From IMG/VR virus record IMGVR_UViG_3300007541_005621, positions 1 through 20,594 of that record: a stretch of DNA of 20,594 nt; one strand, 5' to 3'. Source of the DNA: a virus. Of the stretch, positions 1,272 through 20,099 are shown in pieces. The notes beneath the pieces were generated by a model. It was not told the origin of the DNA. It worked only from the letters and a program-made list of their open reading frames with translations, and made no database searches. Each line of letters opens with the position of its first letter. Position 1 is the stretch's first letter. The position numbers and the translations under genes are program-made.

Positions 1272-2237
1272 TTAAGCTTGCGGACAGTTCACTGTAGTAG
1301 ATCTGACCGGTATCTTAATTTCTTGTTGTTCAACATAAACACCATTAATTTTTTCTTCGATAGGAAATCTGTATGACCCTTCGTAGTAAAAACCAGGTTG
1401 AAATTTTATTACTATCATATCACATACTCTTCTAATGTTACCTGCAACAATTCTAAAAAAATTGGTTGCAGGGTATTGATCAATACCTCTAATTATGCCC
1501 TCTTCAGGATCATAACTTAATCTATTCTCATCTAACTTAGCTACTTCAGTATACTCTGAGGAGTTATTCTGACCGTTAGCTGTAATAACTTCTCTAATCT
1601 TAATTGCTACCCGAAGAGGAGATTCTAAGTATTTCGCCCAGTTAGGTAATCCTATGCAGCCAGAGTTAGGGGAGAACGGTGGTCCTGGATAATTTTTAAT
1701 GGTTTGAATTCCTGGTGGGCCGCTTACTGAAATCTCCGTGTAACCATCAACTGGTGTTATAGGTCCCCTTTGGCAGACCCAACGAATAATATCCGAAGCG
1801 CCTCTTTGAGCATCGCCCGCTTGGTATCTGACAGACAAGCCTGAATCTCTGTATGTTATTACCGGCCAATTAGAGATGTATACATTGTAGTTAGATCTAG
1901 GGCCTGCTTGTGGTCCTCTTAAAGAGGTTCCTACAGGTTCTCCTATATTAGTTTTAGAGGGGCTTATGCACAGAACTAAATCACCACAAATTAAGTTACT
2001 TAGTTCTGTAGCAATTACCTTTCCCCCTACGGTGACATTAACTGGATTAGCTAATATACTTGTAGGGTGTGGCGCTACATCAGCCGATGTAAATCGGTGA
2101 GGAATAAACGGATCGTTATTTACGACAACAGGCGCACCATTCATAGTTACATTAGGCATTTGTGGAGTTTGGCATAAGGTAGGCTCTGCCGTGTGACCTA
2201 ATGATAAATGATTTACTAGATTAAGAGGTCGGACCAT
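1272..2237 (-). CDS. PAAR-like tail spike tip protein with long C-terminal extension
   Basis: Residues about 10-100 follow the PAAR repeat plan, in which pairs of N-V-x-x-x-G hairpins build a small cone held by a zinc ion. Visible elements are MPNVTMNGAPVVVNND, then NPVNVTVGGKVIATE, then a cysteine in LICGD. Candidate zinc ligands are H15, H47, H57 and C84, matching the three-His/one-Cys set of PAAR tips. PAAR proteins (T4 gp5.4, VgrG tips) sharpen the central spike that pierces the cell envelope. This one is 321 residues, whereas most PAAR proteins are about 100; the remaining roughly 220 residues look beta-rich and I do not recognise them. I chose the ATG at 2237, which has an AAGG 8 nt upstream, over the GTG at 2252. 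The gene overlaps the preceding stop by 17 nt. The usual G-D signatures are degenerate, so this is a fold-level call. Confidence 0.68.
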   Translation of the reverse strand: MVRPLNLVNHLSLGHTAEPTLCQTPQMPNVTMNGAPVVVNNDPFIPHRFTSADVAPHPTSILANPVNVTVGGKVIATELSNLICGDLVLCISPSKTNIGEPVGTSLRGPQAGPRSNYNVYISNWPVITYRDSGLSVRYQAGDAQRGASDIIRWVCQRGPITPVDGYTEISVSGPPGIQTIKNYPGPPFSPNSGCIGLPNWAKYLESPLRVAIKIREVITANGQNNSSEYTEVAKLDENRLSYDPEEGIIRGIDQYPATNFFRIVAGNIRRVCDMIVIKFQPGFYYEGSYRFPIEEKINGVYVEQQEIKIPVRSTTVNCPQA

Positions 2238-5055
2238 CACGATCACCTTCACTTAAAATGATTGTATCTTCTACCTGCCCAGGGCGAAGGACTAAATTAG
2301 ATCCTACCGCATCCTCCCTCTGTAGAACTGATCGAATTCTATGTCCTTTGAATCCAGTCTCTAATGCTGCAATAAAGCTAGCAGGAACGTTATACTTAAA
2401 TCTAGTTAATTCAGTAAGTCGCAATCTTCTAAAGACATCCCACCAAGTAATATAATTATATCTATATTTAGTTTTTATACCTTCAATAACATTATAATAA
2501 ACGTGTCCTACTGGAGATCTTTCAGTTACAGTGAGTTGGTTTGGGAATTGATCAGGATCGAAAGGATAATAAATGTTTTGTGTATCATTGATTCCCACTA
2601 ATCCAATTCTGAAGGTATTTTCTTGTGTGTAAGTTAGTTTAGATCCTAATGCTGGTCTGGAGAAATCTTCTTGTGTCAGACCTAACTTAGCGCCGATCCT
2701 TAATCTTCTTAGTAGTGAAGTTTCAGACACAATGTTTATATCTGAGTAACCATTGTAAGGATTATCTTCAGTAGCAGACACAGGATTAATGATCAGGATA
2801 TCTGGTAAGTTTCTTGTTAGGATAGAGTAATTACCTGATGATCGAGATGGCGTAAAGTTTTTAAATGTGAGATCTTTTTGAGAGAAATTAATAAGCTCGC
2901 TTACGTCCATGTATTGAACAATAGGATCATCATACTGAATATTTACTTGTGATGATCTACCACCATAAGTTTTCGAGTGGTCTGCGATTTCGTCTGCATC
3001 CGTTAGTTTAATATAAGATGCTGTAGTAGTGCTTATTAACGGGTCACTTGTTGGGTTATCTTTCAGGCTAGTTAAGTCTAATTTAAAATACATTGGCCTT
3101 GCTGTATACGGTAATTGATAATTAGCTCCTAACTCAGACTTAGCAAAAGTAGAACCAGCCGTCAGATAAGCCGCTGCGTCCTCACCCATCATCTCTAAAA
3201 CAATTTTTCTGATATCTGGCGTAGGGAAGTATGCGGCGGACACTGCTGTGTCTAACTCTAGAGGAACTTCTTGCCCATCAATAGTTTCAATAACGAAGTA
3301 ATAGCCGTCTCCAGGACCTGTAGGAACATGCTCTTCTAACGCAGAAGGTCCTAGCATTGACATACCAGCGTCTTCTAAAAACAGTGGGAATACTTCTTCA
3401 GTCTCAGTTTCTAAAATAACACTAGCTTCAATATCTGTTAGCAGGAATCTTTTTCTAGAAGCTTCGATCCTTTGTTGTAACTGATCATACTTTTGTGGGT
3501 CTGCGGAATTAGCATATGCTGCTAATAAGCCTAGTGCTGCTCTTCTATTTAAATCACTGCTTTCAGATAAAGTTACACTTAAAGGGTCTGTCCCTCTTTG
3601 TTTTTCTGCTAACCTATAGAAATAGTTTATATCAAAATCATCTATAGTCCCGTTTACTAAATGTCTTTTTACAGCTCCTAAAAAGTAATCAGAATCTACT
3701 AATTTTCCATCAATGTCTAATATAGATTTAAATAAAGTATAAACTCTAGGTTTTAGGGATTTTACTAATTTTGCTTTACTAATACCTAAAGCATATCTCT
3801 CAGACCACTCAATGCTTAAGTTTTTGTTCTTAAGCATATACGCAACCTCTTCAGGGATGTAGGTATCAAAAATATCTAAATTTAAATCATTATCCGTGTA
3901 ATTGTTTGATAAACTTTCTTCATAATTAAATATATTGTATATTTTATGATATACAGAACCACTAGAACTTACCGTATTTTCTAGAAAGTTATTTTCAAAT
4001 AAGTTGTTAACGTCAATAGAATTATTTCGAGGGAATTCTGAAAATGATTGATCTCCTGGTGGGTCCCCAACTAGTAAAGAAGTAAATTCTCTTAAATCAC
4101 GGTCAACGACTCCTGTTTCAATATTATCAGGAACATCGAATACATCTGGTCTACGTATTTGGTCAGGTGGTAATCTAGTGAATGTAGTATCGACAGAGGG
4201 ATCATTTATAGTTGATGTTGGTGTTAACGTAGGAGGAGGGTCATCAGGAGGCTCAAACCCGGTAGTGGGGCCAGATACCGCAGAGCATTCAGCGATTTGC
4301 TCTATAAAACCACACTCTCGCTCACAGTCAGTTATAAATCTATGGATATAAGGAAACTGAGGTATTCCTGTTGTCGCAATAGAGCGACAGCCATAAACTA
4401 AAGCTGATACTTGATCGGTATCGGAGCAGAAAAGTTCTTCCACAGGAACACAGCCCCACCAAACTGTTGGTGTAGTAGGCCCTTCTACTCTAACACCCGG
4501 CACGTCTTCTATCGTAGGAGGGACAGCAGTTAAAGTTATGTCGCACTGCTCGTCCTGACAAACATCTCTACACGCATCATCAGAAGGAAAGGGACAATAA
4601 GCAGTTAAATTTCTTAATCTGCCGCAAAAAATACAATCCCTTAACGCACGAGTTGTTTCATTATCTGGGCATAATTCGAAGACTTCCTCGCACCTGTATG
4701 CTGCGATGGAGCAAGGTTCTTCAGCATACCCGAAAGTTTCGCAGGCTGCTTTAGTAGCATATATACGAGTCCTTCGAAGTCTCGGATCTGCATTTTGCAC
4801 TTTCACGCATTGACGAGTAGTATCATCACACCCTAAAGAACCATAACGTGTAGATTCTGCACACTGGCAAACCCATTCGTCTTCTGGCCTTCTAGGATCA
4901 CGAGGTTCAGGTCCGGGTATCCTTATTGGAGGAATGGGCTCATATATTGGCGGTCCTCCTCCACCACCACCGCCGCCGCCACCGCCTCCCCCACCAGGAG
5001 GGATTATCCTGGTTCCTGGTAGGTATTCTCCGCAACCAAATCTAACTTCGGTCAT
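2221..5055 (-). CDS. Large virion protein with polyglycine linker and Cys-rich domain
   Basis: No family recognised over the full 944 residues. A short N-terminus leads to PP, fourteen consecutive Gly (21-34) and a Pro-rich stretch (35-57). A Cys-rich domain follows at 61-257 with 20 cysteines. The remaining roughly 680 residues contain none, so the protein is sharply bipartite. Residues about 265-320 are Pro/Thr/Asp-rich and look like a second linker. The rest appears mixed and then beta-rich, with no enzyme motif that I can see. The ATG overlaps the previous stop (TAATG), with AAGG about 9 nt upstream, so the gene is co-expressed with the fibre genes. It lies between fibre-like genes and the PAAR tip gene, so a virion surface or tail-tip role is likely. 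The Cys-rich module could be disulphide-bonded outside the cell or could bind metal. Confidence 0.85.
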   Translation of the reverse strand: MTEVRFGCGEYLPGTRIIPPGGGGGGGGGGGGGGPPIYEPIPPIRIPGPEPRDPRRPEDEWVCQCAESTRYGSLGCDDTTRQCVKVQNADPRLRRTRIYATKAACETFGYAEEPCSIAAYRCEEVFELCPDNETTRALRDCIFCGRLRNLTAYCPFPSDDACRDVCQDEQCDITLTAVPPTIEDVPGVRVEGPTTPTVWWGCVPVEELFCSDTDQVSALVYGCRSIATTGIPQFPYIHRFITDCERECGFIEQIAECSAVSGPTTGFEPPDDPPPTLTPTSTINDPSVDTTFTRLPPDQIRRPDVFDVPDNIETGVVDRDLREFTSLLVGDPPGDQSFSEFPRNNSIDVNNLFENNFLENTVSSSGSVYHKIYNIFNYEESLSNNYTDNDLNLDIFDTYIPEEVAYMLKNKNLSIEWSERYALGISKAKLVKSLKPRVYTLFKSILDIDGKLVDSDYFLGAVKRHLVNGTIDDFDINYFYRLAEKQRGTDPLSVTLSESSDLNRRAALGLLAAYANSADPQKYDQLQQRIEASRKRFLLTDIEASVILETETEEVFPLFLEDAGMSMLGPSALEEHVPTGPGDGYYFVIETIDGQEVPLELDTAVSAAYFPTPDIRKIVLEMMGEDAAAYLTAGSTFAKSELGANYQLPYTARPMYFKLDLTSLKDNPTSDPLISTTTASYIKLTDADEIADHSKTYGGRSSQVNIQYDDPIVQYMDVSELINFSQKDLTFKNFTPSRSSGNYSILTRNLPDILIINPVSATEDNPYNGYSDINIVSETSLLRRLRIGAKLGLTQEDFSRPALGSKLTYTQENTFRIGLVGINDTQNIYYPFDPDQFPNQLTVTERSPVGHVYYNVIEGIKTKYRYNYITWWDVFRRLRLTELTRFKYNVPASFIAALETGFKGHRIRSVLQREDAVGSNLVLRPGQVEDTIILSEGDRDGPTS
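4285..4875 (-). repeat. Three Cys-rich units in the 944-residue protein
   Basis: Protein residues 61-257 divide into three units that each begin with an aromatic residue before Cys (WVC, YRC, WWGC) and end in a Cys cluster. Cysteines fall at 63, 65, 76, 83, 105, 115; at 122, 129, 141, 144, 154, 162, 166, 171; and at 202, 210, 223, 244, 248, 257. Units two and three share C-x6/7-C near the start and C-x3-C near the end (DACRDVC and TDCEREC). Unit one is the most diverged. Confidence 0.6.
4954..4995 (-). repeat. Fourteen-codon polyglycine tract
   Basis: Codons 21-34 of the 944-residue protein are all Gly, flanked on both sides by Pro-Pro. Several GGN codons are mixed (GGA, GGT, GGC, GGG), so the tract is not a simple DNA microsatellite and has probably been kept for its protein property. 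A flexible or polyglycine-helix linker is the simplest reading. Confidence 0.95.
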
Positions 5056-7376
5056 TACGTCAGCCTTATAGTGGGCGAAGCTCCAGCAAGACTCGTAGGC
5101 ATTCCAGCAAATCCTGTTGGGATACCTACAACCTCAAAAGTTACAGTGGGATAACTAGCTACACCTATTGATGCTTCAGATGGGTATCTAGTGTTAGAGG
5201 CGCTTCTTCTTGAATATAGTTCATCAGTAAGGACTGCGAATCCACCCATATTTCTTGTTCTATTGTTTATGGGGGAGTCTGAGTCTCTAGCTGATTGTGC
5301 TGTTGCCCAAGCAACATAGATAGTAAATCTATTTCTTTCTTTATGAATCCAAATATCTGAAGCTCCGCCAAACACGCGCTGGTTATCTGCATTGTATCTG
5401 GTGCTAAGAGGAACGCAATTTAAGAATTGTGCATTTACTATGTAATCGTCCATCCATGCGGCAACAGAATCACGATTTAAATTAATACTTTTCTTGACGA
5501 AGTTAATATCCACGTTTCCTTGAAAAGCGTCAGTCGCAAATAACTTAATTCTATTTAGTCTTGCATTCGTGTCCCAGAAACCAAACTCACTCTCCTCCTC
5601 TGACGGGCCATTTCTATGGCCTCTGTGATAGCTATTAATTCTATCATTTCGTAGTTGGCCTGGGTTAGTGATGTTTGATCTAGTTGCTCCTGGCTGAGTA
5701 ATGAATCTAGCCAAATCCCAATCAGGGTATTCTGGGATTACGAGATCGCTTCGATACCCATGTCTGGCTAGGAAGGTAGAGTTTAGTTGTGCTTGGGTTG
5801 GACTACCCCCAAGCTCTGTCTCGTATAGGTGTTGGATAGTAGCTTCTGGGCCGAATAAAGTTCCGCCCATTACATACCCAGCCCCCACTATTCTAGGGAA
5901 GGTCTCAGTCCTAGAAGAGCCCCCAGAGTTTCCACCAAGAGCGTTAAACCTAGCTTGATAATCATCGAAAAGTCGTTTAGTCTCATATCGAAGCTCTAGT
6001 TTAGAAACTACAGGGTTGGAAATAGAGATCTGAGGAACTGCGGCGGCAATACCTGCTCTCTCCGAGTAAGTTAGTTCTGCTGTTCTAAAGAACGGTCTAA
6101 TATCAATAACTGAACTCGTTGATAGGATCTGAACGCCTGCTTCGTTGATATCAGGGTCCTTTCTAACAGCGATGTAAGCAATAGGAAGAACAGATTGTCC
6201 GAGTAAGTATGGATCGTTGTATTCTAATTTTTCAGAAATCAATGGAGCAACGTTCATCAAATCATCGGGAGAAGGGAATGATCCTCGAACATTTTCTCTA
6301 TCAAAGCCTCCTACTACTGTTTTAGAATCGCCAACATCAGCGACAATTTGAGCCACTCCATTCTCGTCTGCGCCACCCCCATCTGTTATTGGAGCAGCGC
6401 CTCTGGTTCCTACAGGTCCCGTAACTCCTCTAGCTGATATATTAAGGATTCCACCAGCACCCTTCACAATCCCTAACTCAGCTTTATTAATTATTCTATA
6501 ACCTGTGGTGCTGTTTGGGTGCGTATCAATTACTCTTGTTTCTAAAGCGTCTACAGGTCTAGAGTAGGCAAATAGTAAGTCGATTCTTATCTCTGCTGAA
6601 GGTCTAGATTGCCTGTTCCCGTCAGCGTCGATGTAATCAAAATCAGCAATGTTAAAAGGAGGAATTTCAATCTCTAGCTCTGTTGGCACATCAACAACAG
6701 AAGTTCTAACTACGCCTCTCCAATATTTCATGAATAAAGATTGTAGAGTCGTGTCTGCTGCCATACCTACATCTGGCTGATACTCTAACCAGTTACTTGT
6801 CCATAGTTCTGTATCAACTCGATTGGCCCAGAAAGCAATATCTTTAATAGGGAATACAGAGTTAAAAGTAGTTGTTTGGGATCTATAGTCAATGTAAGCA
6901 TTGAATGGATCTTTAGCTGCATAAGTAAATGCTCTCTCCATTAACCCATTAAGGAACGTAGGAGAGAATTCTGATTCTGAAGTTATAGCATCTATATTAC
7001 TTTGGATACTAGTAGTATTATACGTTCCTACTTCCCAAGCTGTTGCCTCATTGAATAGCTCACCAGCTATCCGTCTCAGAGTCATGAAGCGAGCAGAAGA
7101 TGCAATATCATTGATACGAGCAGTGAAACGCCCTGGCATGACGTAAACTTTATTGTCAGTGCCGTTCACGTAAGGCTTAAGTTCGTTAAAGTCTTCTCTA
7201 CTAAAGCCTGTAGCGTTTGTAGCCCTATTCATTTGATCCCGCAGCCACAGGTCATTCTCCATTAACTGCTGTAGTGGGATGTTATCAACTTCCCAGTAGT
7301 AAGGATCATTAGCTGTGAAGTATCGAATAGGAGACCTAAATCTGTAATCGCTTTCTGCGTAATTATATTGAACCAT
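5055..7376 (-). CDS. Baseplate-associated fibre/structural protein with shared N-terminal motif
   Basis: 773 residues, function not assigned. Residues 26-49 contain YYWEVDNIPLQQL followed by a helix-like stretch ending in LRDQM. The same pattern is at the N-terminus of the beta-helix protein encoded next door, so this segment is probably a common docking element for the baseplate. The middle appears beta-rich. A short Gly-rich run near residue 320 (GVTGPVGTRGAAP) has only about four collagen-like triplets and probably acts as a hinge. The C-terminus is Ser/Gly/Pro-rich. The ATG lies 1 nt after the upstream stop (TAA-G-ATG) with a GA-rich ribosome site inside the previous gene, and its own stop overlaps the next start. 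It is likely a fibre, a fibre connector or a baseplate rim protein. I see no enzyme motif. Confidence 0.83.
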   Translation of the reverse strand: MVQYNYAESDYRFRSPIRYFTANDPYYWEVDNIPLQQLMENDLWLRDQMNRATNATGFSREDFNELKPYVNGTDNKVYVMPGRFTARINDIASSARFMTLRRIAGELFNEATAWEVGTYNTTSIQSNIDAITSESEFSPTFLNGLMERAFTYAAKDPFNAYIDYRSQTTTFNSVFPIKDIAFWANRVDTELWTSNWLEYQPDVGMAADTTLQSLFMKYWRGVVRTSVVDVPTELEIEIPPFNIADFDYIDADGNRQSRPSAEIRIDLLFAYSRPVDALETRVIDTHPNSTTGYRIINKAELGIVKGAGGILNISARGVTGPVGTRGAAPITDGGGADENGVAQIVADVGDSKTVVGGFDRENVRGSFPSPDDLMNVAPLISEKLEYNDPYLLGQSVLPIAYIAVRKDPDINEAGVQILSTSSVIDIRPFFRTAELTYSERAGIAAAVPQISISNPVVSKLELRYETKRLFDDYQARFNALGGNSGGSSRTETFPRIVGAGYVMGGTLFGPEATIQHLYETELGGSPTQAQLNSTFLARHGYRSDLVIPEYPDWDLARFITQPGATRSNITNPGQLRNDRINSYHRGHRNGPSEEESEFGFWDTNARLNRIKLFATDAFQGNVDINFVKKSINLNRDSVAAWMDDYIVNAQFLNCVPLSTRYNADNQRVFGGASDIWIHKERNRFTIYVAWATAQSARDSDSPINNRTRNMGGFAVLTDELYSRRSASNTRYPSEASIGVASYPTVTFEVVGIPTGFAGMPTSLAGASPTIRLT

Positions 7377-7377
7377 C

Positions 7378-10300
7378 TTAGCTCTCTTCTAATAAATCAA
7401 ATAAGTTACAGCTCTTGAAACCCTTTCCTCGTATACCAGAACTGGCGTTTCTACTTTCGCCAAAGCGGGCTGTTTTAGCTGAATATATCGTGCAAATTTG
7501 AGGTCTGTTAGAACTCCCCATCGCACCATTCTTTGCATTAGCAAATAAGTTTGAAGCAGATTCGTCCAGAAGTATTGAATTTGGATCACAGAAAACAAAC
7601 TCATTACCATAATAGAACCCAGATACATTTACAGTTCCATCAACTTCATTAATTTTAAGAAGTTTCCCATAGAATCCACTAGTATCTGCGATGCCATAGG
7701 CTGGTCCTGAAGGGTTATATCCTTGAGCATAGATTTGCTGGATAATTCCATTTCCTCCTCCATGGATTAGGGAGTTAGCCATTGAATCAACACCAACATA
7801 TAATCTGAACGGTCCTTGATTCTCGAATGTATTTTGTCCATACTGAGTAAAGGTGCCATTTGGTAAATACCAGGCATTAACACCTGATCCGCACCCATAA
7901 TAATCTAGAACAGATAATGTCGAAGTATCGGGAGTGCTAGACAAAGCTCCACGAGCGACTAAACCAGCCCCACTAAACCATAGTGCTGATGGTCCATGAT
8001 AGCCGACATCTAACGGGTAAGCTCCACTGACTGAGACGTGATCGACGTGCATGGTTGAGTTGTTAGCGACATTCCATATAAATAATCTACTACAGAACTC
8101 ATCTGAGGCACTAGTGTCATAGTAGACTGAGCTAGCGTTCCACCACCCGCAAGGGAAGTGGACATTCCTAACCCTAACATTTGATCCGTTTAATGCTCGG
8201 AGGCACATACCTCCTTGGGTAACAGAAGTTAAAGCATAAGGATCATTAGTCCATAATTCCTGACCAAAGTAGAATCTTTCAGATCCTGCATCAGTCATCC
8301 TACAAGTCCCACCTCTCGTTTGGAGGACCTCTGGGAACTCGCTATAGTCTCCTGCCTCATTAGGGTTTGGATAGAACTGGAAGAAGCCTGCTGAGGTGTA
8401 TGGGGCGAAGGTTAATAGCGTTGATGTGTTATAGTTTGTAGCACTAGCATCTTCTGTAGTCCAGTTGACATGATAGTCACCGAGATCTTCCATGGTTACA
8501 GTAGAGTTATTATCTGCTACTATACAAGAGTTATAACCCTTTAGCTCTACCATCGTATGGTTTCTTGCGTTAGTTAGGCTGAACCCTTCAATGTCAAACT
8601 CACCATCATGTTTTTTGTGAGGCTCAAAGATAATATTAGAATTCCTATTAGCGTAAACGTTTACTGCTCCATCATACACTATGGTAGGACCTCGGAATCT
8701 TAGGGTAGAGTTATTTTCAGCGCACAAAGCTGCGTAATACTTCATCTGAGAATAACTTGGTGATGCGGTGCCTCCTAAGTAAGCAGAGATAGAGCTAGCA
8801 CTCCCCAAAGAGACATACTCAGATCCGTTCTTAGCTAAAACGTGAGCGCCCTTTGCTGGCTTATCTGTTTCTCCTCCCCGGAAGTGGCTTGAGTGAATTA
8901 ATTCTACGTGAGAGCGATCAAGATCAATAGCAGGAAGTAAAGAACCTACAGAGTCATTTGTAATACCATGAGCGTCAGCAAATATCATTCTTCCGTAATA
9001 CTTAGCCATATCTTCTGCGAATCGAGTTGGCTTGAAAGTAGAGTTAAGTAATACAAGATGCTGGCCGTTATCATCGAATTTGTAAGAATACTGCTTACGG
9101 TTAGTGTATTGTGGATTTAGAGTTAGACTAGCTGAGTAATCAATTCTATCAACTGCGGAAAGCCCAACGTTGTTGTAGCTAAAGTTACTATCTTTGCAGT
9201 TTATTCCATAAAGATGGTTCTTTTCAATTGTGAACTCTTCAAGCTCTATAGTGCTTTCAGTAGATTTAATTCCTCTAGTGTTGTGGTAAACCTCTAGACG
9301 CCCATCAAATCTAAATCTACTATTTTGAAGTTCTATGCCATAATTGGCATTTCCTTCAATTGATAGAATATCCGCATACATAGAACCAGAAACATTGTTT
9401 ACTGTAGCTGCTTCTTTTGATTTACCTCCGCGAATAGTAGAGTTGATCAGTCTTAATCCAGTGGAGTTTCTTGAGATCATTCTTAGATATAGACCTGCCA
9501 AGAAAGTTCCATGACCTAAGTTAGAGGTATGCTCTTCAGTAGTATCAAAGAATATTTCGGAGTTTGTTGCCTCTATACCAGCCGAGTCATCTTTTGGTGC
9601 ATCAAACCCTTTAATATTAGTTAGCCATGGTTTCGATAGTCGATTGTTGCTGCTATCCAATCCATAACATCTATTGACGAATAGGTCGCGCATGAATGAC
9701 ACAGTGGAGTTTTTGATTCTAATACCTTTATCCACAAAGTGATCAACGGCAACACTCTCTAGGTAAACTGTTGAATCTTTTATATCAATTCCTACGTCAG
9801 TAGTGGACCCATTCCCCTTGCAGAAAAAACCTCTAATGTAAATGGGACCTGAGCATTTAGAAATTACAATCTTGTCTAAGTAGTTCCCGTAAGCAACTAA
9901 CCTCAATGTGGTATCAGCACCAGGAGCTAGCCCTATATTAGCTACATAATCTCTGTAAAGTTCATTTGAGAAGGAATAGCCATCTACTTGGTTGAAAGAG
10001 CTAGGATCGTATAAAGTAACTTCATCACCAGCACCCTCCTCATAAACTACAGAAGTTACTGTAGTCCCAGTAGTTGCTAAGACAGCATCAAAACTTAAAT
10101 CAGCTACAGAGAGTCTACCTAGCTCCATATTAGAGTAGGTGCCTGTTGGGCGGCTTCCATAGAAACCCTTGTATTCAGATATTGCCCTAGCATCTGTATT
10201 TGGTGAAATATTGGAGAATATTGATTTACCTGTAAGGATAGAAGATGGGGCTGCATTAGCTGTGTTCGTAAAGAACTTCCACAAAGAATCAGTGTTACTT

Positions 10301-10818
10301 GTAATTATATCGTTCCAGAGAGTTTGGTAGTTCCCATGAGGCCCTCCAGTAACAGAATCTAAGCCACTACATTCTATACTTGATAATACAGGAGGCGCAA
10401 AAGTTGTTCTATTAATAATCTCAAGACTTCCAGACGGTCCCATAGTAATGTCTGTAAGTTCTAAAGAACCTAGCTCACCAAAATTAGCTACCTCAATGAT
10501 CATTGGGTAGTTTATATACTTTGGTAGAACTTTGGTTAAAGAGGAGACATCAGGGAATACGTTTCTGTTACATCCTATATCACCTGCTGGTGCGTCGGCG
10601 GAAACCAGTAAGACTATCCCAGGAATAGATGATGTTGGATACCCAAACTGTTCCCAAAGAAGCTCTGTCCTGTCATCTAAATCATATAATGGTAGGTTAT
10701 CCTGTTCCCAATTGTAGAAAGATCCTGAATGGAATTTAGTGACATGATCTGTCCAGCACCCAAAAAGCTTTGCTGATCCAGAAGTAGAATAAAGATCGTT
10801 TATTAGATATGTTGCCAT
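7378..10818 (-). CDS. Right-handed beta-helix tail fibre/spike protein
   Basis: 1146 residues. Residues 35-58 hold YNWEQDNLPLYDL plus a short helix, the same putative baseplate-docking motif as in the 773-residue neighbour. From about residue 340 to 930 the sequence is built from short strands joined by recurrent Asn/Asp-Ser-Thr turns (KDSTVYL, KNSTVSF, TESTIEL, NNSTLRF, NNSTVTM, NNSTMHV and more), typical of parallel beta-helix proteins of the pectate-lyase-like fold. Phage spikes with this fold bind and often cut surface polysaccharide. I cannot identify a catalytic pair, so enzyme activity is unproven. The start ATG shares one base with the previous stop (TGATG) and lacks a Shine-Dalgarno, which implies coupled translation. 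The best role is a receptor-binding or depolymerase-type fibre. Confidence 0.87.
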   Translation of the reverse strand: MATYLINDLYSTSGSAKLFGCWTDHVTKFHSGSFYNWEQDNLPLYDLDDRTELLWEQFGYPTSSIPGIVLLVSADAPAGDIGCNRNVFPDVSSLTKVLPKYINYPMIIEVANFGELGSLELTDITMGPSGSLEIINRTTFAPPVLSSIECSGLDSVTGGPHGNYQTLWNDIITSNTDSLWKFFTNTANAAPSSILTGKSIFSNISPNTDARAISEYKGFYGSRPTGTYSNMELGRLSVADLSFDAVLATTGTTVTSVVYEEGAGDEVTLYDPSSFNQVDGYSFSNELYRDYVANIGLAPGADTTLRLVAYGNYLDKIVISKCSGPIYIRGFFCKGNGSTTDVGIDIKDSTVYLESVAVDHFVDKGIRIKNSTVSFMRDLFVNRCYGLDSSNNRLSKPWLTNIKGFDAPKDDSAGIEATNSEIFFDTTEEHTSNLGHGTFLAGLYLRMISRNSTGLRLINSTIRGGKSKEAATVNNVSGSMYADILSIEGNANYGIELQNSRFRFDGRLEVYHNTRGIKSTESTIELEEFTIEKNHLYGINCKDSNFSYNNVGLSAVDRIDYSASLTLNPQYTNRKQYSYKFDDNGQHLVLLNSTFKPTRFAEDMAKYYGRMIFADAHGITNDSVGSLLPAIDLDRSHVELIHSSHFRGGETDKPAKGAHVLAKNGSEYVSLGSASSISAYLGGTASPSYSQMKYYAALCAENNSTLRFRGPTIVYDGAVNVYANRNSNIIFEPHKKHDGEFDIEGFSLTNARNHTMVELKGYNSCIVADNNSTVTMEDLGDYHVNWTTEDASATNYNTSTLLTFAPYTSAGFFQFYPNPNEAGDYSEFPEVLQTRGGTCRMTDAGSERFYFGQELWTNDPYALTSVTQGGMCLRALNGSNVRVRNVHFPCGWWNASSVYYDTSASDEFCSRLFIWNVANNSTMHVDHVSVSGAYPLDVGYHGPSALWFSGAGLVARGALSSTPDTSTLSVLDYYGCGSGVNAWYLPNGTFTQYGQNTFENQGPFRLYVGVDSMANSLIHGGGNGIIQQIYAQGYNPSGPAYGIADTSGFYGKLLKINEVDGTVNVSGFYYGNEFVFCDPNSILLDESASNLFANAKNGAMGSSNRPQICTIYSAKTARFGESRNASSGIRGKGFKSCNLFDLLEES
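8041..9780 (-). repeat. Asn/Asp-Ser-Thr turn repeats of a beta-helix
   Basis: About 14 copies of the turn motif [N/D]-S-[T/N/E/R/H]-[V/I/L/F/M]-x-[F/L/M/V] occur at irregular spacing in the 1146-residue protein, each starting a short strand. Examples are KDSTVYL, KNSTVSF, TNSEIFF, INSTIRG, QNSRFRF, TESTIEL, KDSNFSY, LNSTFKP, DRSHVEL, NNSTLRF, RNSNIIF, NNSTVTM, NGSNVRV and NNSTMHV. The repeat is seen only at the protein level. Boundaries are approximate. Confidence 0.6.
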
Positions 10819-12439: not shown

Positions 12440-15400
12440 TTACGGTAAAACTTGGGGAGATAAATCTACTAAATTAAAGTTATTTGCGCCAGTTGCTGTA
12501 GAATAAGTTGTATTTCTTGGATTTATTCTATAGTTGGCTCGGCTTCCGCCGTTATCAAAGTTAATTCCAGTGCTTTCAGCGGGATCTCTAGATAATCCTC
12601 CAACGTTATGAGATACTCCTCCCAAAGAGTTATAATAGTTAAAGATAGCTCTGATATCCTCTTTAGATAGGTCTACATGGTAAATATCACATAATGGATA
12701 TTTTTTATGTCCTGTAGGGGTTCCAGTAACATCAATTCGTGTTAAATCATGTATGGTATTATCTATTAAACTGATATTATCTAGCAAGATAAATCTTTCT
12801 GTATTTGAAGCTTCTGGTATCATGAATAGTTCTACGACATACGTTTGGTCTAACCGATGAGGTTGATTTTTTATTTTAAAATATTCTTCAGGAACTTTGA
12901 TTCTACAGTAATTTCTTGTATCAAACTTAAATTCAAACTCTTCAAACTCATCTTCTGAGAAAGTCCCTATCCCACTTAGGAAGTCTACGATTGGAAATAA
13001 CTGTTCGCTATCTAGGCACTGGAAGGTTGGACGGTTGTTTTGTGTCCTATCTACAGTCGTAAACTCGTGAGTGTGGGTTAAATCCGTTAGGATTTTTGTT
13101 ATGGTTAGATCACTAGTTTTAAGTAACTGCCAACGTCCATTCTTACCGAAGTGCCATGTGAGGTCGCTACCTTCCGTGTCTGTATGAATCCAAACGCCCA
13201 ATCTTGCATTAATTAATTTGCTCCCGTTTTCGAGAGCAGCTAAAGCTCTAACTTTAAGCGTAAAGTTATTTTCTGGGACAAGGAAGTTAGAAGATCTCTT
13301 CGTATCATACGATTCAGTTAGGTCGATCCCAGGAATTTTAAATCTAATTCTAGGTAATCCATTTACAGATTTCATTCTTAAGAATGCGTTATCATAAACG
13401 AAAGAATCAGCTTTTTGTTGTTGTAAGTCGTAGAAGACGAAGTGATTGACTGGAGAGCTTCCTGAAGTGAAGATTACATCTGTATTAGCAATAATACCTG
13501 AGTTAACTAATTCTGTGGTTGTTGGTAATACCAAAGACGAAGCTATGATTGCTGACGGATTTGTGACAACTGTAGTGCCGTAAACACTCATTGAGTTAGC
13601 CGTCCCAGAGAAGTAAGGTGTTGTTGAGTTAATGACCTTAACATCTCTGATATCTGTTGTATATGTGCTGTAAGTTCGAGCTTCAGGACCTTTTGATTCT
13701 AGATCACTGTTTTCAATTATACTACCAAAAGCATGAGCGTAAATACTAGCGCCAAACTCTCTCTCTAGTTGGTAGGCTGTTGGATGTCTATTAAATGCAG
13801 ACGTATACAGATGGTATAGCTCGTGAACTTTTCTTCCTAAGCCAAAGTTCTCATACGCATCCAGTGAACTTAAAAATAAACCACTGCAAGTGATCTCTTT
13901 GTTAACTAACTCAGAAACTACGTCTCTCCACTTTAAGTCTGAGGCATATTGACTGATATTATCTTTAACATGTTTTTCGTATTTTTTATAGAGTTTTTGT
14001 TCTGCGATCTTATGAACAACAGCCATAAAAGGATCTAGTTTATCCCTGTCAACGTAACTATCTGACTGGAAGAAGAATATGTCTGCGGATTTATTTTGGA
14101 ATCCTCTATACCCTCTGCTCTTCATCGTTGTTGAAACATCATATCCATAATAATTTGCTGATGAATATAGGGCACAACGATCATATACTTCTGGTATTTC
14201 CGATATGACTCCGCTACAGTCCGCGCTCACAGAAGCGAAAGTAAGTGACGACGGTATAAAGCCTAAAGGTATAAATCCAGAAGGAGCAAAAGTATCACTA
14301 AAGTATTCTGTATTTCTTAATATGGTAGTGCCTAGAGTCATATACTGACTTAGTGACTCATGCTCGGCATTCATAAACACTAAATTATTAACAAAAGAGG
14401 CAGGCTTCTGAACGCTAAGACGAACTGTTAGTTCAGTATCTGCTGCGAATACACTAGTTAATTCAGAAGCAGCAAACTTATACTGTAGAGGATGGATGCC
14501 TGGGATTAAGGTCCTGAGGTCCCAATCAGTTTGTATATTTACTACGTCTGTGCCGTTTATGAACGAAATAATCACAGGCCAGTTGTAATAGAAAGGTGCT
14601 GCTCCAAGGTTAAGCCAAGTTAGACTAATCTCTACATCTTTATCATTATAAACTATGTCAGGTATAAAAGAAGAGTCGATATAGAAACTATATCCAATCG
14701 TGTAAATACTGTCAATTATATTTTTGTATTTTACGGGATAGTCATTATTAGCTCCGTTGTTGTAGGCATCTCTTAGAGCTTGGGTTTGGAGAGTTACTTT
14801 AGTGCCGGAGATTAAGCTTGGTCGAATTGCTCTAATACAGTCGGCTACTTTTTGAGGGACAGGTGAGCGAATAGGTCCACTGTAAGTTTTTGCAAAAATA
14901 TCTAAATTGTCTAGTAGAGGTGGGTAGATCTCGGCTGCATTCATTACCCGCTTATATTTTTCTTGAACGTTATAAAATATAGCTTGGGTCATTGTGAAGT
15001 TAATCGTGGTATTATCTATAATATCTCTAGGTGGAATTGTTTGATAACAAAGATTGTTATCAGTGATACCCACATCAACATCTATATCAGAAAGTTCTGT
15101 AGGGTTATCCGGTAATCCTCTAAAAGTATTAGAAAGCACATCGTAAAATCTACCAGTTATCTGGGTTTGAGAGAAGGCATTATCAAAAGAATTAATGACT
15201 GCGTTTATAGTCCCGATCGGTATTTCCGTTAGTGTGACAGGTAATATGCTTCTCCTTGCTTCCCGATTCTTCCATCCACCCCAATGACCAAGTAAACCTA
15301 TCTCTATCATCGCTAGTCTTGGGTCTCCATCATACCTAGCACCTATTGCGGAGATTGTAGTTTGTAGAGAAGATACTAATAGAGGATCAGCATAGTTTGG

Positions 15401-18022
15401 TAAATAGCCTGAAACACCTCTAGTAGCTTGTGTTATGACTGAATCGCCTTCTAGGGCTTGATCAAAACGCCCTGATGGGACTTCATACTGCTCTCGGGCT
15501 ACAGCACTAAGAAACAGAGGCAATGCAAAAGGTCTGAGTAGTCCTGTCGGACCATTCTCATCAAAAGTTTGTGGATGGTCAATATAGAATTTAATTACAG
15601 CCTGACAATTCACCGAAGAGATTGCATCTAATTCAGCATCTAAAGTTGTCCAATCGTAAGTATTAGTCTCTCCTCCATTATAAAAAAGTCCTGATAATGG
15701 CATCCAAATTCTTTCTACAGATCTTGGCACAGAGTTTTTTGCAGCAAGATTTAGGTCTCTGTTTGGGTAATAACCTTTGATTGGGTTATAGAGAGCTTCA
15801 GGGTTTTCAGCAAATGTATACTGAGTAAATTTAAACTCTTGTAAAGGATCGCCAACTAACATCTCAGTAAATAAAGGAGCGTTTACTCCAGTCCTACTGT
15901 AGTAGCCTGCTACACTTAATTTGTTATGATAATCTTTTCTTCTGTAAGTATTACGTTTTGCAATTATCTTCTCTACGCTAGACAGGTTTGTTATAACCAA
16001 GGAAGAGAATGTGTATCTGCTATTCCTAACCCCACTAAATTCAAGTAAAGTTCCTAATAGATCAATAGCTGAAATATCAACATTTCCAAAAGTAATAGAG
16101 GATAACTGCCCAACTAACTCGTCAGACTTATCAAGCCAAAACTGAGGTCTGACATCATCCGCAGGGGAATATTCATCCTCAGTCCTTAGAATAACTGAAG
16201 AATCCTTGATCGCGTGGGCTGGTGCGAATCTGTCTGCTAGTCTGTTAGCTACTTGAATTACCTGCTGAGAATCAGTCTCGTAAGTAGCCTTAGAGAAGTT
16301 AAAATCGTTAGCATCAAAGTTAAGCTTATAATGAGAAGACTTACCATTCCAAAGAGGTAAGTAAAGCTCTTTCTTAGCTACAGGATCTAGAATGATTTCT
16401 TCCCAGTTTGGGGGTTGCTGATAATCTAGGGTAAAGAATAGCCAACCATTATTCTCAGAATAATCTAAGAATCTTTCATCTATAGTTGATATTGTGTTTT
16501 GATCAATGTAGTTTTTAACTTTAATTGCAAAATCTTGAGGAACTCCAAAACAAACTAAAAGATCAGCTAACCGTGTCAATAGTGCATCACTTATTACACA
16601 ATGAACATAATAAGGAATTTCTTCAAAAGGAGGGATAGGATATACTCTACCTCTGTAATCAAATTTAAAATCTTCGGAGTCTACAGGGAATAAAGATTTT
16701 GCTAATTGAAAATGATCAGGAAACTCTTCAAATAAGGTTAAAATAATCTTGTCAACAGCTAGTTTAATATTATTATCAAAGTTTCCATAGTCATAATCAT
16801 TGATCCCTAGTTGAATAGCTTTATCCGGTGTATATGTTCTAAAATCTTGAAAATGTATTGATTTTGTTGCTAAAGAATAAAGTATCAAGAATGGGACGTA
16901 TGACTCCCAGAGCTCTCTAAGATTACTGCTAATATTAACTATGTCTGGGGTGAAGACGCTGTTTACTGCCGCAATAATGGATTGTTTCGTGCCCGCTCTC
17001 TTATATATTTGGACAGCGTTAACAAGTTGTAGTCTCCATTTCTTTGGGTCATATCCTACCAACTCCCAACCAATCAGCTTTGCTATTTCCTCTAGAAGAT
17101 GGTCAGGGCATTGCTCTAGATCGTAAAGGATCTCAAGGTCATTGACCTCAGATCTTTGGTCCGAGAATAGAAATGAAAAAGCTTTTAGTAATCTAAAGAA
17201 TGGTCCTTTAGATTTAGTGTCCAAGTTTAATTCAGAAGTCTGACTAAATAGTTCAAAGCTATCTCTGACTAAAGTATCAGCTATATCTGAAGTTTCTGTT
17301 GAATATATTACAGAGTTATATGTCTTTAGTGCCTCTAGCAATTGAGTTCCACTTGTATAAGTGGTTGATCCTGATAAGAAATTAGCTGGTATATAACTGG
17401 AGTAGGATGATTGATTCCTCCATAAATATTCGGTTAGTGCATTTATTCCGTCAGCGATCGTTAGAGGCTTCCCTCTGTAAAGTTTATCTACAAAGTAATT
17501 TACTACCGTTGAAGATGGTTGATATGAGTCAGTGGAGCTACCAGCTAAGAAATAAAACCAACCAAGACTCTGAATCAGTTTGTCTGTGCCAGATGCTCCC
17601 ACTAAGGGACCAGATCTTGTATTAGTTTGTATTTGTGGAATTAGTGATGTAGTCACAAAATCTTTAAATACAGAGCTTGATTCGAATAAGCGGAAAGAAG
17701 TGCCTAACTCATTTAAAACAGTTCTTTCGAAAGACTCTGGGGTTATGTTAGTGTAGTTATTCTGCTTAAAGAAGAATGACTGTATACCTTGGTAGGTGTT
17801 TATTGATGAAAAAAAGATGCCTGCGGACAGCGGAAGTATTGTATTGAGATCTCTTGCTAATAAAATATGATTATTTAAAATCACATTAGTAGGATCAACC
17901 TCTATCCCAGATAAGTCTAAATCAGCTTGTAAGTATTGCCCAGGAATTAATACTTCAATGGCATCAGAGAGGTTTCTCTTATAAAATTCTTTTTTTTGTA
18001 AGTTAAATCTCTGAGATGTCAT
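12440..18022 (-). CDS. Giant gpI/gp7-like baseplate wedge protein with embedded sugar-enzyme-like barrel
   Basis: 1860 residues from the ATG at 18022, which overlaps the gp6 stop as TGATG and has GAGGG 5 nt upstream; a GTG one codon earlier is less likely. Residues about 300-360 carry the P2 gpI-type signature (CPDHLLEEIAKLIGWEL, then KKWRLQLV and KRAGTKQSI). P2 gpI and T4 gp7 occupy the same place with gp6/J in the wedge, and the gene follows gp25 and gp6 as W-J-I do in P2. P2 gpI is under 200 residues and T4 gp7 about 1030, so this is very large. Residues about 765-1205 resemble a DUF4874/DUF4832 barrel plus beta domain. An HELYH sequence occurs at 1400-1404. The C-terminal 350 residues look like beta-sandwich modules, perhaps carbohydrate-binding. 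A combined wedge and receptor-contact protein is the best inference. Confidence 0.78.
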   Translation of the reverse strand: MTSQRFNLQKKEFYKRNLSDAIEVLIPGQYLQADLDLSGIEVDPTNVILNNHILLARDLNTILPLSAGIFFSSINTYQGIQSFFFKQNNYTNITPESFERTVLNELGTSFRLFESSSVFKDFVTTSLIPQIQTNTRSGPLVGASGTDKLIQSLGWFYFLAGSSTDSYQPSSTVVNYFVDKLYRGKPLTIADGINALTEYLWRNQSSYSSYIPANFLSGSTTYTSGTQLLEALKTYNSVIYSTETSDIADTLVRDSFELFSQTSELNLDTKSKGPFFRLLKAFSFLFSDQRSEVNDLEILYDLEQCPDHLLEEIAKLIGWELVGYDPKKWRLQLVNAVQIYKRAGTKQSIIAAVNSVFTPDIVNISSNLRELWESYVPFLILYSLATKSIHFQDFRTYTPDKAIQLGINDYDYGNFDNNIKLAVDKIILTLFEEFPDHFQLAKSLFPVDSEDFKFDYRGRVYPIPPFEEIPYYVHCVISDALLTRLADLLVCFGVPQDFAIKVKNYIDQNTISTIDERFLDYSENNGWLFFTLDYQQPPNWEEIILDPVAKKELYLPLWNGKSSHYKLNFDANDFNFSKATYETDSQQVIQVANRLADRFAPAHAIKDSSVILRTEDEYSPADDVRPQFWLDKSDELVGQLSSITFGNVDISAIDLLGTLLEFSGVRNSRYTFSSLVITNLSSVEKIIAKRNTYRRKDYHNKLSVAGYYSRTGVNAPLFTEMLVGDPLQEFKFTQYTFAENPEALYNPIKGYYPNRDLNLAAKNSVPRSVERIWMPLSGLFYNGGETNTYDWTTLDAELDAISSVNCQAVIKFYIDHPQTFDENGPTGLLRPFALPLFLSAVAREQYEVPSGRFDQALEGDSVITQATRGVSGYLPNYADPLLVSSLQTTISAIGARYDGDPRLAMIEIGLLGHWGGWKNREARRSILPVTLTEIPIGTINAVINSFDNAFSQTQITGRFYDVLSNTFRGLPDNPTELSDIDVDVGITDNNLCYQTIPPRDIIDNTTINFTMTQAIFYNVQEKYKRVMNAAEIYPPLLDNLDIFAKTYSGPIRSPVPQKVADCIRAIRPSLISGTKVTLQTQALRDAYNNGANNDYPVKYKNIIDSIYTIGYSFYIDSSFIPDIVYNDKDVEISLTWLNLGAAPFYYNWPVIISFINGTDVVNIQTDWDLRTLIPGIHPLQYKFAASELTSVFAADTELTVRLSVQKPASFVNNLVFMNAEHESLSQYMTLGTTILRNTEYFSDTFAPSGFIPLGFIPSSLTFASVSADCSGVISEIPEVYDRCALYSSANYYGYDVSTTMKSRGYRGFQNKSADIFFFQSDSYVDRDKLDPFMAVVHKIAEQKLYKKYEKHVKDNISQYASDLKWRDVVSELVNKEITCSGLFLSSLDAYENFGLGRKVHELYHLYTSAFNRHPTAYQLEREFGASIYAHAFGSIIENSDLESKGPEARTYSTYTTDIRDVKVINSTTPYFSGTANSMSVYGTTVVTNPSAIIASSLVLPTTTELVNSGIIANTDVIFTSGSSPVNHFVFYDLQQQKADSFVYDNAFLRMKSVNGLPRIRFKIPGIDLTESYDTKRSSNFLVPENNFTLKVRALAALENGSKLINARLGVWIHTDTEGSDLTWHFGKNGRWQLLKTSDLTITKILTDLTHTHEFTTVDRTQNNRPTFQCLDSEQLFPIVDFLSGIGTFSEDEFEEFEFKFDTRNYCRIKVPEEYFKIKNQPHRLDQTYVVELFMIPEASNTERFILLDNISLIDNTIHDLTRIDVTGTPTGHKKYPLCDIYHVDLSKEDIRAIFNYYNSLGGVSHNVGGLSRDPAESTGINFDNGGSRANYRINPRNTTYSTATGANNFNLVDLSPQVLP
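14408..15730 (-). other. DUF4874/DUF4832-like glycoside-hydrolase-type domain within the giant wedge protein
   Basis: Three landmarks of this bacterial family appear in order. First comes an opening strand MPLSGLFYNGG followed by a helix and AVIKFYIDHP (about 770-825). Next is a strand and turn MIEIGLLGHWGGWKN (about 906-919). Last is a beta-sandwich with IGYSFYIDSSF and LNLGAAPFYYNWPV (about 1108-1155). In the family the central motif is usually G-x-W-G-E-W; here the Glu is Gly, which suggests a binding role rather than catalysis. Assigned from memory of the family pattern; boundaries are approximate. Confidence 0.5.
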
Positions 18023-19638
18023 CACACCCTCACTATATTAATTGTTAAGTTATTAAGCTGAATAATTTCATTAAAATCAGCTTTAATTGTCGTTGGGAAG
18101 TTATCTACAGTTGCAAATCTCACCTCGGGTATTTGGAAAGTTGAACGAGCTACTTCTTGAGGATTGAACTCTTGACCAAAATATCTGTTGTCAACATTGA
18201 AGTAATCTAGTATAACGTCTCTAATATTTAATTTAATTAACTCCTCAGTCTCCTTAATTTCTCTATCAATTCTTGCAGTAATTACAAGATCAATTGTTCT
18301 AATAAGTCCGTCTACAACCACAACCTCATCAGTTAACATTTTTTTAGGTTCTATGGCGTCTAGAAGCTCTTTTTTAAACGTTGGGGTTGCTTTTCTGAGT
18401 TGTGTATCGCTTGCTTTCTCTAGGATATACAAATCAATAATATTTGCTGATGAGTAAGCTCTCCTAACTGCTGCTGTCGCTTTCCCTATAGATCCGTAAG
18501 AAGAAATAAATGTATTTGCGAAAGTATCAAAATCATCCAAAGTAACAACTCGATCCTGTCTCCTAAATGTTAAGGGGCCATACTTTTTAGCATGATCGAC
18601 AGTCTCAGCATCTGATCCTCCAGTAGCTTTACTAGAATTCTCTAAAACACCATTAGCTGTAGTGCCTTGAGTTATGTTATTCACAACGACTGGGAAGTTG
18701 ATGACTTCAGCGTTTATATTACCTCTCTCTCCACCACCAACCCTGTAGGTTATCAAAAATGAGTCGCCTGGGGCTGGTGATTGTCCCGTTAGGTTATCTC
18801 CAAAAATCACGCTAGCTTTAAAGTCATCATCAGAAACTAGTTGGAATATCTTGGCTGTAGATCCTGATGCAAAATAGACGTTATCTACCTGAGTGTAGAC
18901 ACCGCTAGTTTGGGAATTACCTGTTATAAATACTTCTACAGACCCTTCAATAACGGGGCTAGAATCCAACGTTACCGTCTTAATCCCAGTCTCTGCTCCG
19001 AAGTTTCCAGTCTTTCTCACCAAAGAACCCTCCAGTAAAACTAGATTATCGTGTAGCACTACAGTCCCTGGGTTAGCGGCATCTCCGCCTACGCCCTCGA
19101 TCTCCGTTAAGATTATTGATGCGTTTTGGTTTACTAAATCTACTAAACCATTTGTATACTTATACAAAGTATAAACTAATGGTGCGCCATCATCTGGTGA
19201 TGTTATTTGGATAGTCCTATTTGAGAACGGGATCTCTAGCTGGTCATAAGTTGTTACGTAAGGACTGCTATCGAAAGTTATCGTTGCATTTGCTGCCGCT
19301 CCGATAGGTCCTTTCATCCTAACGCCTATAAGCTCTAATAATTTTTTAATGTTATTTCTATTTTTTGCAGTTCTAAGATAATTTTCGTTAGCTAAGAAGT
19401 CTGCTTTCATTGAAGTTGTTGCTCCTACATAAGCAACTAAATCAACTAACATCATTCCTAAATCAGATTCGACAAAGTTATTATAGTCTAAGGGGTAGAC
19501 CGCTCTGATGTAATCAATTAGGTTTAGCCTATAAGAATTAAAATCAGTCCCTGCAAAATCAATTAAAGATTCCTTTTTTGATTCAGGATATCTTACTAAT
19601 TTTAAGAAGTCTGAACTGACTGAACCATCAAATGTCAT
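18022..19638 (-). CDS. Baseplate wedge protein gp6 / baseplate J family
   Basis: 538 residues. The N-terminal third has the family hallmark of a helical region where the wedge fork forms: YPLDYNNFVESDLGMMLVDL, then DFLANENYLRTAKNRNN and LLELIGVR (residues about 48-105). A second hallmark lies near 345-370, where KKYGPLTFRRQDRVVTLDDF matches the R-x-V-T-x-x-D-[FY] signature of P2 J / T4 gp6. gp6 dimers with a gp7/gpI subunit form the wedge that joins into the inner baseplate ring around the tube. The ATG overlaps the gp25 stop as ATGA with AAGG 8 nt upstream. The 3' end overlaps the giant wedge gene. Length lies between P2 J (about 300) and T4 gp6 (660), as in many marine T4-like phages. Confidence 0.92.
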   Translation of the reverse strand: MTFDGSVSSDFLKLVRYPESKKESLIDFAGTDFNSYRLNLIDYIRAVYPLDYNNFVESDLGMMLVDLVAYVGATTSMKADFLANENYLRTAKNRNNIKKLLELIGVRMKGPIGAAANATITFDSSPYVTTYDQLEIPFSNRTIQITSPDDGAPLVYTLYKYTNGLVDLVNQNASIILTEIEGVGGDAANPGTVVLHDNLVLLEGSLVRKTGNFGAETGIKTVTLDSSPVIEGSVEVFITGNSQTSGVYTQVDNVYFASGSTAKIFQLVSDDDFKASVIFGDNLTGQSPAPGDSFLITYRVGGGERGNINAEVINFPVVVNNITQGTTANGVLENSSKATGGSDAETVDHAKKYGPLTFRRQDRVVTLDDFDTFANTFISSYGSIGKATAAVRRAYSSANIIDLYILEKASDTQLRKATPTFKKELLDAIEPKKMLTDEVVVVDGLIRTIDLVITARIDREIKETEELIKLNIRDVILDYFNVDNRYFGQEFNPQEVARSTFQIPEVRFATVDNFPTTIKADFNEIIQLNNLTINIVRV

Positions 19639-20099
19639 AGCGTAACCTTAACTGTAAATGCTGAATCAGCGATATCTAAGATCTTGCAATTTAATACAAT
19701 TTTTAATGTAGATATGCCATTTGAGGCATAGTCATCCAACGGTATAACGTCTAAACCAAGAATTCTAACAGTTGGTAAATAGGTTAGAATCGCTCGCTCA
19801 ATTCTTTCCCTCATTTCAGAAACCAACTCTCTATCAAATGGTGCGAATAAAAGAGAGCGCAAAGGGCAGCCAAAATCAGGTAACATTACCCGTTCTCCTG
19901 GTTCGGTCATGATTAGTTGTCTTAAGTTAGACTTAACAACGTCCACATCGGACATTTTAGAAAAATAACCATCTGTGGTTCTGTCAAATGGGAATCGCAA
20001 ACCATTTAATTTTTTAGAATTTTTTTGCTTAACGCTATTCAATATCCTCTGCTGAGGGATAGCGCCTAACACTGTTTCAGATTCACCTAAGTTTGCCAT
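19635..20099 (-). CDS. Baseplate wedge protein gp25 (GPW/gp25 family)
   Basis: 154 residues with the GPW/gp25 core: a helix VVKSNLRQLIMTEPGERVML, then PDFGCPLRSLLFAPFD and a helix leading into a strand near residue 113. gp25 (P2 W) clamps the gp6/gp7 wedge core and nucleates the sheath at the baseplate. The usual Glu-Pro-Arg motif at the helix end is altered to L-P-T-V-R (108-112). About 40 extra residues precede the core. A clear AGAGGA ribosome site lies 9 nt before the ATG in the 29-nt gap after the esterase gene. The stop overlaps the gp6 ATG, so the two subunits are probably made in step. Confidence 0.93.
   Translation of the reverse strand: MANLGESETVLGAIPQQRILNSVKQKNSKKLNGLRFPFDRTTDGYFSKMSDVDVVKSNLRQLIMTEPGERVMLPDFGCPLRSLLFAPFDRELVSEMRERIERAILTYLPTVRILGLDVIPLDDYASNGISTLKIVLNCKILDIADSAFTVKVTL

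Follow-up and report, generated by a model that had tools for sequence, protein, structure and literature searches.

Introduction

Sugar-binding folds on baseplates, depolymerases on tail spikes and carbohydrate-active folds in phage baseplates are known already. For Gp119, a baseplate wedge protein of the Bacillus myophage Vp4, host cells are decorated by the form bearing carbohydrate-binding modules (CBMs) and not by the CBM-less homologue (PMC11406892). The gp7-like part of AlgoCIS Alg11/Alg12 and of T4 gp7-type wedges was described as a re-engineering hotspot (PMC8894135). SIR_1591 of Streptococcus intermedius, composed of a triosephosphate isomerase (TIM) barrel and a DUF4832 domain, was reported as an active glycoside hydrolase (GH) by which Pel aggregates were dispersed (PMC12345266). 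The present analysis concerns IMG/VR virus record IMGVR_UViG_3300007541_005621, a 20.6-kb viral fragment of an uncultured tailed phage (positions 1 to 20,594, the whole stretch analysed, hereafter the window) with all large genes on the minus strand. It encodes a baseplate wedge protein of 1861 amino acids into which a module of the DUF4874/DUF4832 type is inserted, with a conserved glutamate and five further polar residues of the module replaced.

The module resembles bacterial DUF4874/DUF4832 proteins such as SIR_1591 in the predicted succession of a TIM barrel and a DUF4832 beta-sandwich that includes the N-terminal strand (PMC12345266), in the elements NP(L/I)KG, GxWG(E)W, E1032, GY and APFYYxW, and in the reported structural kinship to beta-amylases. 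The bacterial proteins are cellular (in the cases read, secreted, anchored in the membrane or part of a cellulosome) and keep the Glu, whereas the unit of the window lies inside a phage wedge and has Glu917, H919, H988, D990 and H1068 replaced. Vp4 Gp119 is likewise a wedge protein with built-in carbohydrate-binding folds that are absent from the homologue of a close relative (PMC11406892), but it is a wedge of the BW3/A511 gp105 type with only CBM jelly-rolls and no glycosidase barrel. CBM-like domains are also present in AlgoCIS Alg11, for which no enzyme-type barrel was reported (PMC8894135). The nearest solved folds are those of GH14 beta-amylases (Z up to 16.8), among which the non-catalytic maize BZR1-type protein (7UPV) is a precedent for a barrel without catalysis; they differ from the module in having no detectable sequence relation to it and no phage wedge context. 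The same two-part fold was found in A0A8S5R645 (Foldseek E 1.5e-23), a metagenomic protein of Ackermannviridae sp. ctaCq7 already named DUF4832 domain-containing, and the presence of DUF4832 in phages is therefore no novelty in itself; at 731 amino acids, however, this protein is much too short for the same wedge fusion. In the open-licence literature, no report of a glycosidase-type TIM barrel in a gpI/gp7 wedge was found, and nothing on phage baseplates was found for DUF4832/DUF4874, nor anything joining a pseudoenzyme and the bacteriophage baseplate. No match was obtained in 50,697 deposited phage genomes by tblastn with the module of the window, L006, L172, L091 or L107.

Results

Wedge protein and gene order

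The genes were found in the order gp25-like, gp6-like and then the gene of the 1861-amino-acid protein, which starts within the gp6-like gene (4 bases of overlap, no gap) (Table 1). The position after the gp6-like gene is kept in related loci, and orthologues of 1350-1950 amino acids were found in more than 60 viral contigs. A gpI/gp7 signature at about residues 300-360 had been claimed in an earlier note made from the letters of the window; the Tail_P2_I (PF09684) match is located there, and in the window protein itself it is weak (E 0.007-0.023, under the curated cut-off). When the N-terminal regions of 22 diverse relatives were scanned, Tail_P2_I was detected in all of them (best E 1.9e-9) and the PHROG 48 tail protein in 17. 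Since Tail_P2_I recurs in the relatives and the gene order agrees, the assignment of the window protein as a gpI/gp7-type baseplate wedge subunit is well supported by family matches and synteny. Tail_P2_I and DUF4832 both exceed their curated cut-offs within one and the same protein in the orthologues L006 and L007, so the fusion of wedge and DUF4832 is more than chance.

Searching the wedge N-terminus against Protein Data Bank (PDB) sequences yielded designed repeats and a marginal match to 'wedge protein gp32' (E 0.36), the latter of which was not used. Relatives of the wedge protein or of the module in named phages were not found, and those of the gp6-like neighbour are remote (at most 27% identity). 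The nearest deposited gp6-like relative is located in a 595-kb genome of an uncultured phage (L005, LR756511.1, 562427-563899; 26.8% identity, E 1e-39), where a gp25-like gene adjoins the gp6-like gene too.

Extent and distribution of the insert

Related viral loci (80) were retrieved with the gp6-like neighbour. In about 15 related phage lineages, the gene following the gp6-like one aligns to window residues 1-719 and then straight to residues 1249-1855, the flanks being joined usually by about 3-18 residues. A block of about 530 residues is present at this place in L004, L006, L007/L008/L010/L011, L085 and L173; the contigs L004 and L173 end within it. Bounds of 14408-15730, proposed earlier for the module, are too narrow; the insert spans about residues 720-1248 and includes an N-terminal strand. 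In the maximum-likelihood tree of the gp6-like protein, the insert-bearers fall into one clade with 100/99 support; the remaining members of this clade are truncated contigs of unknown insert state, and the neighbouring lineages are without the insert. With all insert-bearers in one clade, a single gain is the simplest reading, by which the module would have been inserted once, in the ancestor of the clade. The module is 34-37% identical to that of the window in the diverged, independent contigs L006, L007, L010, L011 and L085, and the overlapping contig L004 is identical to the window through residue 918. The fusion, whose persistence in relatives had been proposed as a check, is kept through a clade of related phages, in most of which the Glu is lost and in one of which (L006) it is kept.

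About 100 extra residues stand straight after the DUF4832 sandwich in L006 (L006:7242-13103), indicating that the insertion point takes further domains. A wedge relative, L030:9573-10955, contains a different insert elsewhere in the chain, which resembles a sialate (sialic-acid) O-acetylesterase (SASA, E 3.4e-5, slightly under the cut-off).

Family and predicted fold of the module

The curated cut-offs are 29.2 bits for DUF4832 (PF16116) and 30.1 bits for DUF4874 (PF16173). DUF4832 was matched on window residues 1099-1204 with 25.6-28.2 bits as protein and 29.4 bits in a six-frame search; in orthologues the scores were 32.5 and 37.9 bits, above the cut-off, and six of six module rows gave a match (best E 5e-10). 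For DUF4874 there was no match in the window, one of the six module rows matched at E 0.0028, and L006 scored 14.2 bits, under the cut-off. In a profile scan of bacterial genomes, 78 cellular loci from Planctomycetota, Chloroflexota, Bacillota, Actinomycetota, Verrucomicrobiota and others aligned over nearly the whole module (query residues about 28-520; best E 5e-38). As judged from these alignments, the module is homologous along its full length to bacterial DUF4874/DUF4832 proteins, and the family assignment made earlier agrees with this.

The motifs named in the earlier note were located in the 1861-amino-acid open reading frame (LFYNGG at 780-785, GHWGGW at 913-918 and LNLGAAPFYYNWPV at about 1138-1151), which confirms the frame and the fusion described there. 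Of the three proposed landmarks, FYNGG is not a conserved one: relatives read YGGGG or YANDG, and it is NP(L/I)KG(F/Y) at residues 747-752 that is diagnostic at the N-terminal end.

An AlphaFold2 model of the module, made with a 79-row alignment (predicted local distance difference test, pLDDT, 86; predicted template modelling score, pTM, 0.87), contains an alpha/beta barrel with a beta-sandwich behind it; any other predicted fold was to refute the earlier note, so the model agrees with its reading. The top solved structures by Foldseek were GH35 and GH5 enzymes; after realignment, ranks 1-26 were all GH14 beta-amylases (Z 14.6-16.8), with GH42 and GH10 behind, so that the best matches are glycoside hydrolases, GH14 first. 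The plant beta-amylase described as non-catalytic (7UPV) is among them. Kinship with GH14 at the level of sequence was rejected: a profile of 79 family members had no match in PDB sequences, hhalign against one Paenibacillus GH14 sequence gave a probability below 1%, and there was no Pfam GH14 match either.

Other carriers of the module

The same DUF4874/DUF4832 module, with the Glu kept, was found in a 2797-amino-acid protein of an uncultured phage (L172:1027-9420), together with a C-terminal part like the T4 gp15 tail sheath stabiliser (PF16724, E 1.8e-13); this tail-protein fusion is separate from the wedge fusion. Stand-alone viral DUF4874/DUF4832 proteins are encoded at L091:7575-9008 and L090:7857-9386, one of them downstream of a minor-tail-protein gene. 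In Paenibacillus/Cohnella proteins of about 2100-2200 amino acids (L100, L112, L119, L121 and L125), the family matches cover two widely separated stretches, which suggests tandem copies of the module.

Residues of the catalytic site

A Glu-to-Gly change in a motif read as GxWGEW by relatives had been reported at residue 916. The motif of the relatives was recovered as stated, 74 of the 75 cellular members (and also the stand-alone viral proteins L090 and L091) having Glu there, and so was the change itself; its real position is 917, residue 916 being the preceding Gly, which is conserved in all relatives. Across phages, residue 917 is Gly in the window, Asn in L007 and L085, Asp in L173, and Glu in L006 and L172. 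In the AlphaFold2 model it follows strand 4 of the barrel, whereas Glu1032, the other conserved Glu, sits in strand 7; at the latter position Glu is found in 76 of 77 relatives. A Glu pair at strands 4 and 7 is the usual arrangement in many barrel glycosidases. A correspondence of Glu917 to the acid Glu of beta-amylases may be argued, solely from the fold and the similar G-x-x-G-E spacing.

The window has replacements at six conserved polar barrel positions (R812K, E917G, H919K, H988T, D990N and H1068R). The same six positions are replaced in L007 and L085, mostly with other substitutes, and L173 is also replaced there; in L006 none of the six is replaced. Conservation in 90% or more of the cellular members was seen at 72 columns; of these, 47 are kept in the window, 49 in L007 and 56 in L006, and the residues kept in the window include Glu1032, D816, D901, R903, R959 and D989. 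From these alignments we infer that catalysis has been lost in the module of the window, and the strongest argument for this is that a whole set of conserved residues, not one, was replaced. The loss of catalysis suspected earlier from the Glu alone is strengthened by the five further active-site-like replacements.

Selection and history of the module

The ratios of nonsynonymous to synonymous substitution (dN/dS) in Glu-less sister modules were 0.17, 0.07 and 0.10 in three comparisons, that is, the sister modules are under purifying selection, which argues that the fold is kept for something. In the gp6 tree, L006 groups with the L007 group and the window lies outside (93/94), which needs two losses of the Glu; in the module tree, the long branches of which were flagged as unsafe, the window groups with L007/L085/L173 and L006 lies outside (93/87), which needs one loss and a module swap.

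Third-position identity at module codons about 860-1010 of L007, L085 and L173 is 0.83-0.86, against mostly 0.4-0.7 in the flanks, and each of them has an antisense open frame of 77 codons at codons about 943-1020. Either recent recombination or an overlapping constraint could account for the segment of high identity.

C-terminal region

The C-terminal wedge region behind the insert contains a jelly-roll that was aligned by VIA-align to the xylan-binding CBM4-2 (Z 12.9, root mean square deviation 2.5 A, 160 of 167 residues, 17% identity) and detected by Foldseek (E 4e-5), with CBM16 also matched. No carbohydrate-binding family profile was matched in the C-terminal region. The modelled jelly-roll is probably a fold of the CBM4 type, with putative carbohydrate binding. 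Since the C-terminal region is common to insert-less relatives, the arrival of the barrel was probably preceded by a carbohydrate-binding-type fold in the wedge arm.

Table 1. Features of the window, with their coordinates, strand and basis.
Feature	Coordinates	Strand	Basis
gp25-like baseplate wedge gene	19635..20099	(-)	GPW_gp25 E 6.2e-15
gp6/gpJ-like baseplate wedge gene, directly upstream	18022..19638	(-)	phrog_219 E 6.4e-39, TIGR02243 E 5.8e-34
Whole wedge protein, 1861 amino acids, GTG start	12440..18025	(-)	Open reading frame and translation
Conserved N-terminal wedge region (gpI/gp7 type), residues 1-718	15872..18025	(-)	Tail_P2_I, PHROG 48
Tail_P2_I (gpI-like) match, residues 296-359	16949..17140	(-)	Above curated cut-off in L006, L007, L085
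Inserted DUF4874/DUF4832 module, residues about 720-1248	14282..15868	(-)	Missing from insert-less relatives; full-length cellular homologues
Predicted TIM-barrel part, residues about 770-1109	14699..15718	(-)	AlphaFold2 model; GH14 beta-amylases Z 14.6-16.8
Codon GGA, Gly917 (Glu in 74/75 cellular relatives)	15275..15277	(-)	Same codon in overlapping contig L004
Codon GAG, Glu1032, second conserved Glu (GGE motif, barrel strand 7), kept	14930..14932	(-)	Alignment and model
C-terminal DUF4832 beta-sandwich, residues about 1114-1237	14315..14686	(-)	Pfam DUF4832; strands mostly pLDDT at least 90
Conserved C-terminal wedge region, residues 1250-1861	12443..14278	(-)	Also in insert-less relatives; AlphaFold2 pLDDT 71
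CBM4/CBM16-like jelly-roll (predicted), residues about 1433-1756	12758..13729	(-)	VIA-align and Foldseek

Discussion

We consider it rather probable that the insert in this gpI/gp7-type wedge, its active site having decayed, now serves as a non-catalytic, multivalent sugar-binding arm that aids docking. A bacterial-type DUF4874/DUF4832 glycoside-hydrolase unit would have been put into a peripheral part of the wedge subunit in the ancestor of the clade. In the window and in L007, L085 and L173, the acid/base-type Glu917 and the five further polar residues would then have been lost and the catalytic apparatus would have decayed, with the fold and Glu1032 retained and, in the sisters, held under purifying selection. 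The enzyme fold would thus be kept as a sugar-binding module, as was supposed in the earlier note: the barrel cleft, no longer cutting, may form reversible, avid contacts with surface polysaccharide, and each baseplate presumably displays several arms, alongside the CBM4-like fold of the same chain. Such an arm could help the tail to dock on the surface polysaccharide of the host before engagement of the tail fibre or spike and contraction; the arm of L006 may have kept its cutting activity. More tentatively, with chances somewhat short of even, we put forward that an enzyme became an adhesin within this one clade, from a depolymerase insert (the state kept in L006) to a lectin in the sisters, with a similar module separately fused to gp15 in L172.

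Several points weigh against the proposed sugar-binding arm. The relation to GH14 is one of fold only; the retained Glu1032, D816, D901, R903, R959 and D989 could leave some chemistry possible; purifying selection was measured on the sister modules and not on the window's own branch; and the synonymous distances among the sisters are partly affected by recombination. The module might still be an active glycosidase of altered mechanism, in which water, another residue or a carboxylate of the substrate takes the place of the lost Glu917 beside Glu1032, the wedge being a depolymerase that clears surface polysaccharide. Some families include glycosidases without one carboxylate, the module retains Glu1032 and several conserved residues, and, as Glu917 is kept in the sister L006 and in the unrelated fusion L172, the group may have had a depolymerase role. 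We nevertheless regard this explanation as quite unlikely, because the replacements affect six conserved polar barrel positions at once and because the substitutes vary by lineage (917 G/N/D; 919 K/S; 988 T/N), a pattern to be expected of relaxed, not re-engineered, chemistry. A mere structural spacer or decoration, holding fibres or reshaping the baseplate rim with no sugar contact, would accord with the description of gp7-like wedge arms as re-engineering hotspots binding different fibres (PMC8894135). It is also an unlikely explanation, though one that keeps some weight: several ancestral residues are kept in the barrel, the module is dispensable for assembly given the insert-less majority, and a CBM4-like fold on the same chain and a carbohydrate-esterase-like insert in L030 were found.

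The remaining doubts concern the protein as a whole. Its size, much larger than that of P2 gpI, and a Tail_P2_I match that stays under the curated cut-off in the window would suit a tail fibre or spike encoded beside the wedge genes. Large C-terminal arms are, however, normal for gp7-type wedges, and with Tail_P2_I in 22/22 relatives, above the cut-off in L006, L007 and L085, and with the conserved position right behind the gp6-like gene, a fibre or spike is very improbable. The window is a metagenomic fragment and no isolate carries the arrangement, as would be the case for an assembly chimaera; yet the same architecture is shared by the independent, diverged contigs L006, L007, L010, L011 and L085, and L004 overlaps identically, so that an assembly artefact was rejected and is given practically no credence.

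Among the sister phages, the otherwise similar protein may lack the insert, have it with its site intact or have it with the site decayed, so the set is a natural experiment on the turning of cutting enzymes into binding surfaces. The module gives a protein open to direct binding and cutting assays, and DUF4832 is flagged as a family to annotate in phage tails.

Neighbouring genes of the window

Two large proteins encoded downstream (window 5055-10818), for which no Pfam match was obtained, share a motif near the N-terminus (YNWEQDNLPLYDL and YYWEVDNIPLQQL, respectively), which suggests that two tail appendages have an attachment domain in common. A 944-amino-acid protein (window 2221-5055) contains about 14 consecutive glycines close to its start, and a 326-amino-acid protein (window 1272-2252) with a marginal PAAR-motif match (E 0.036) is a candidate for the spike tip.
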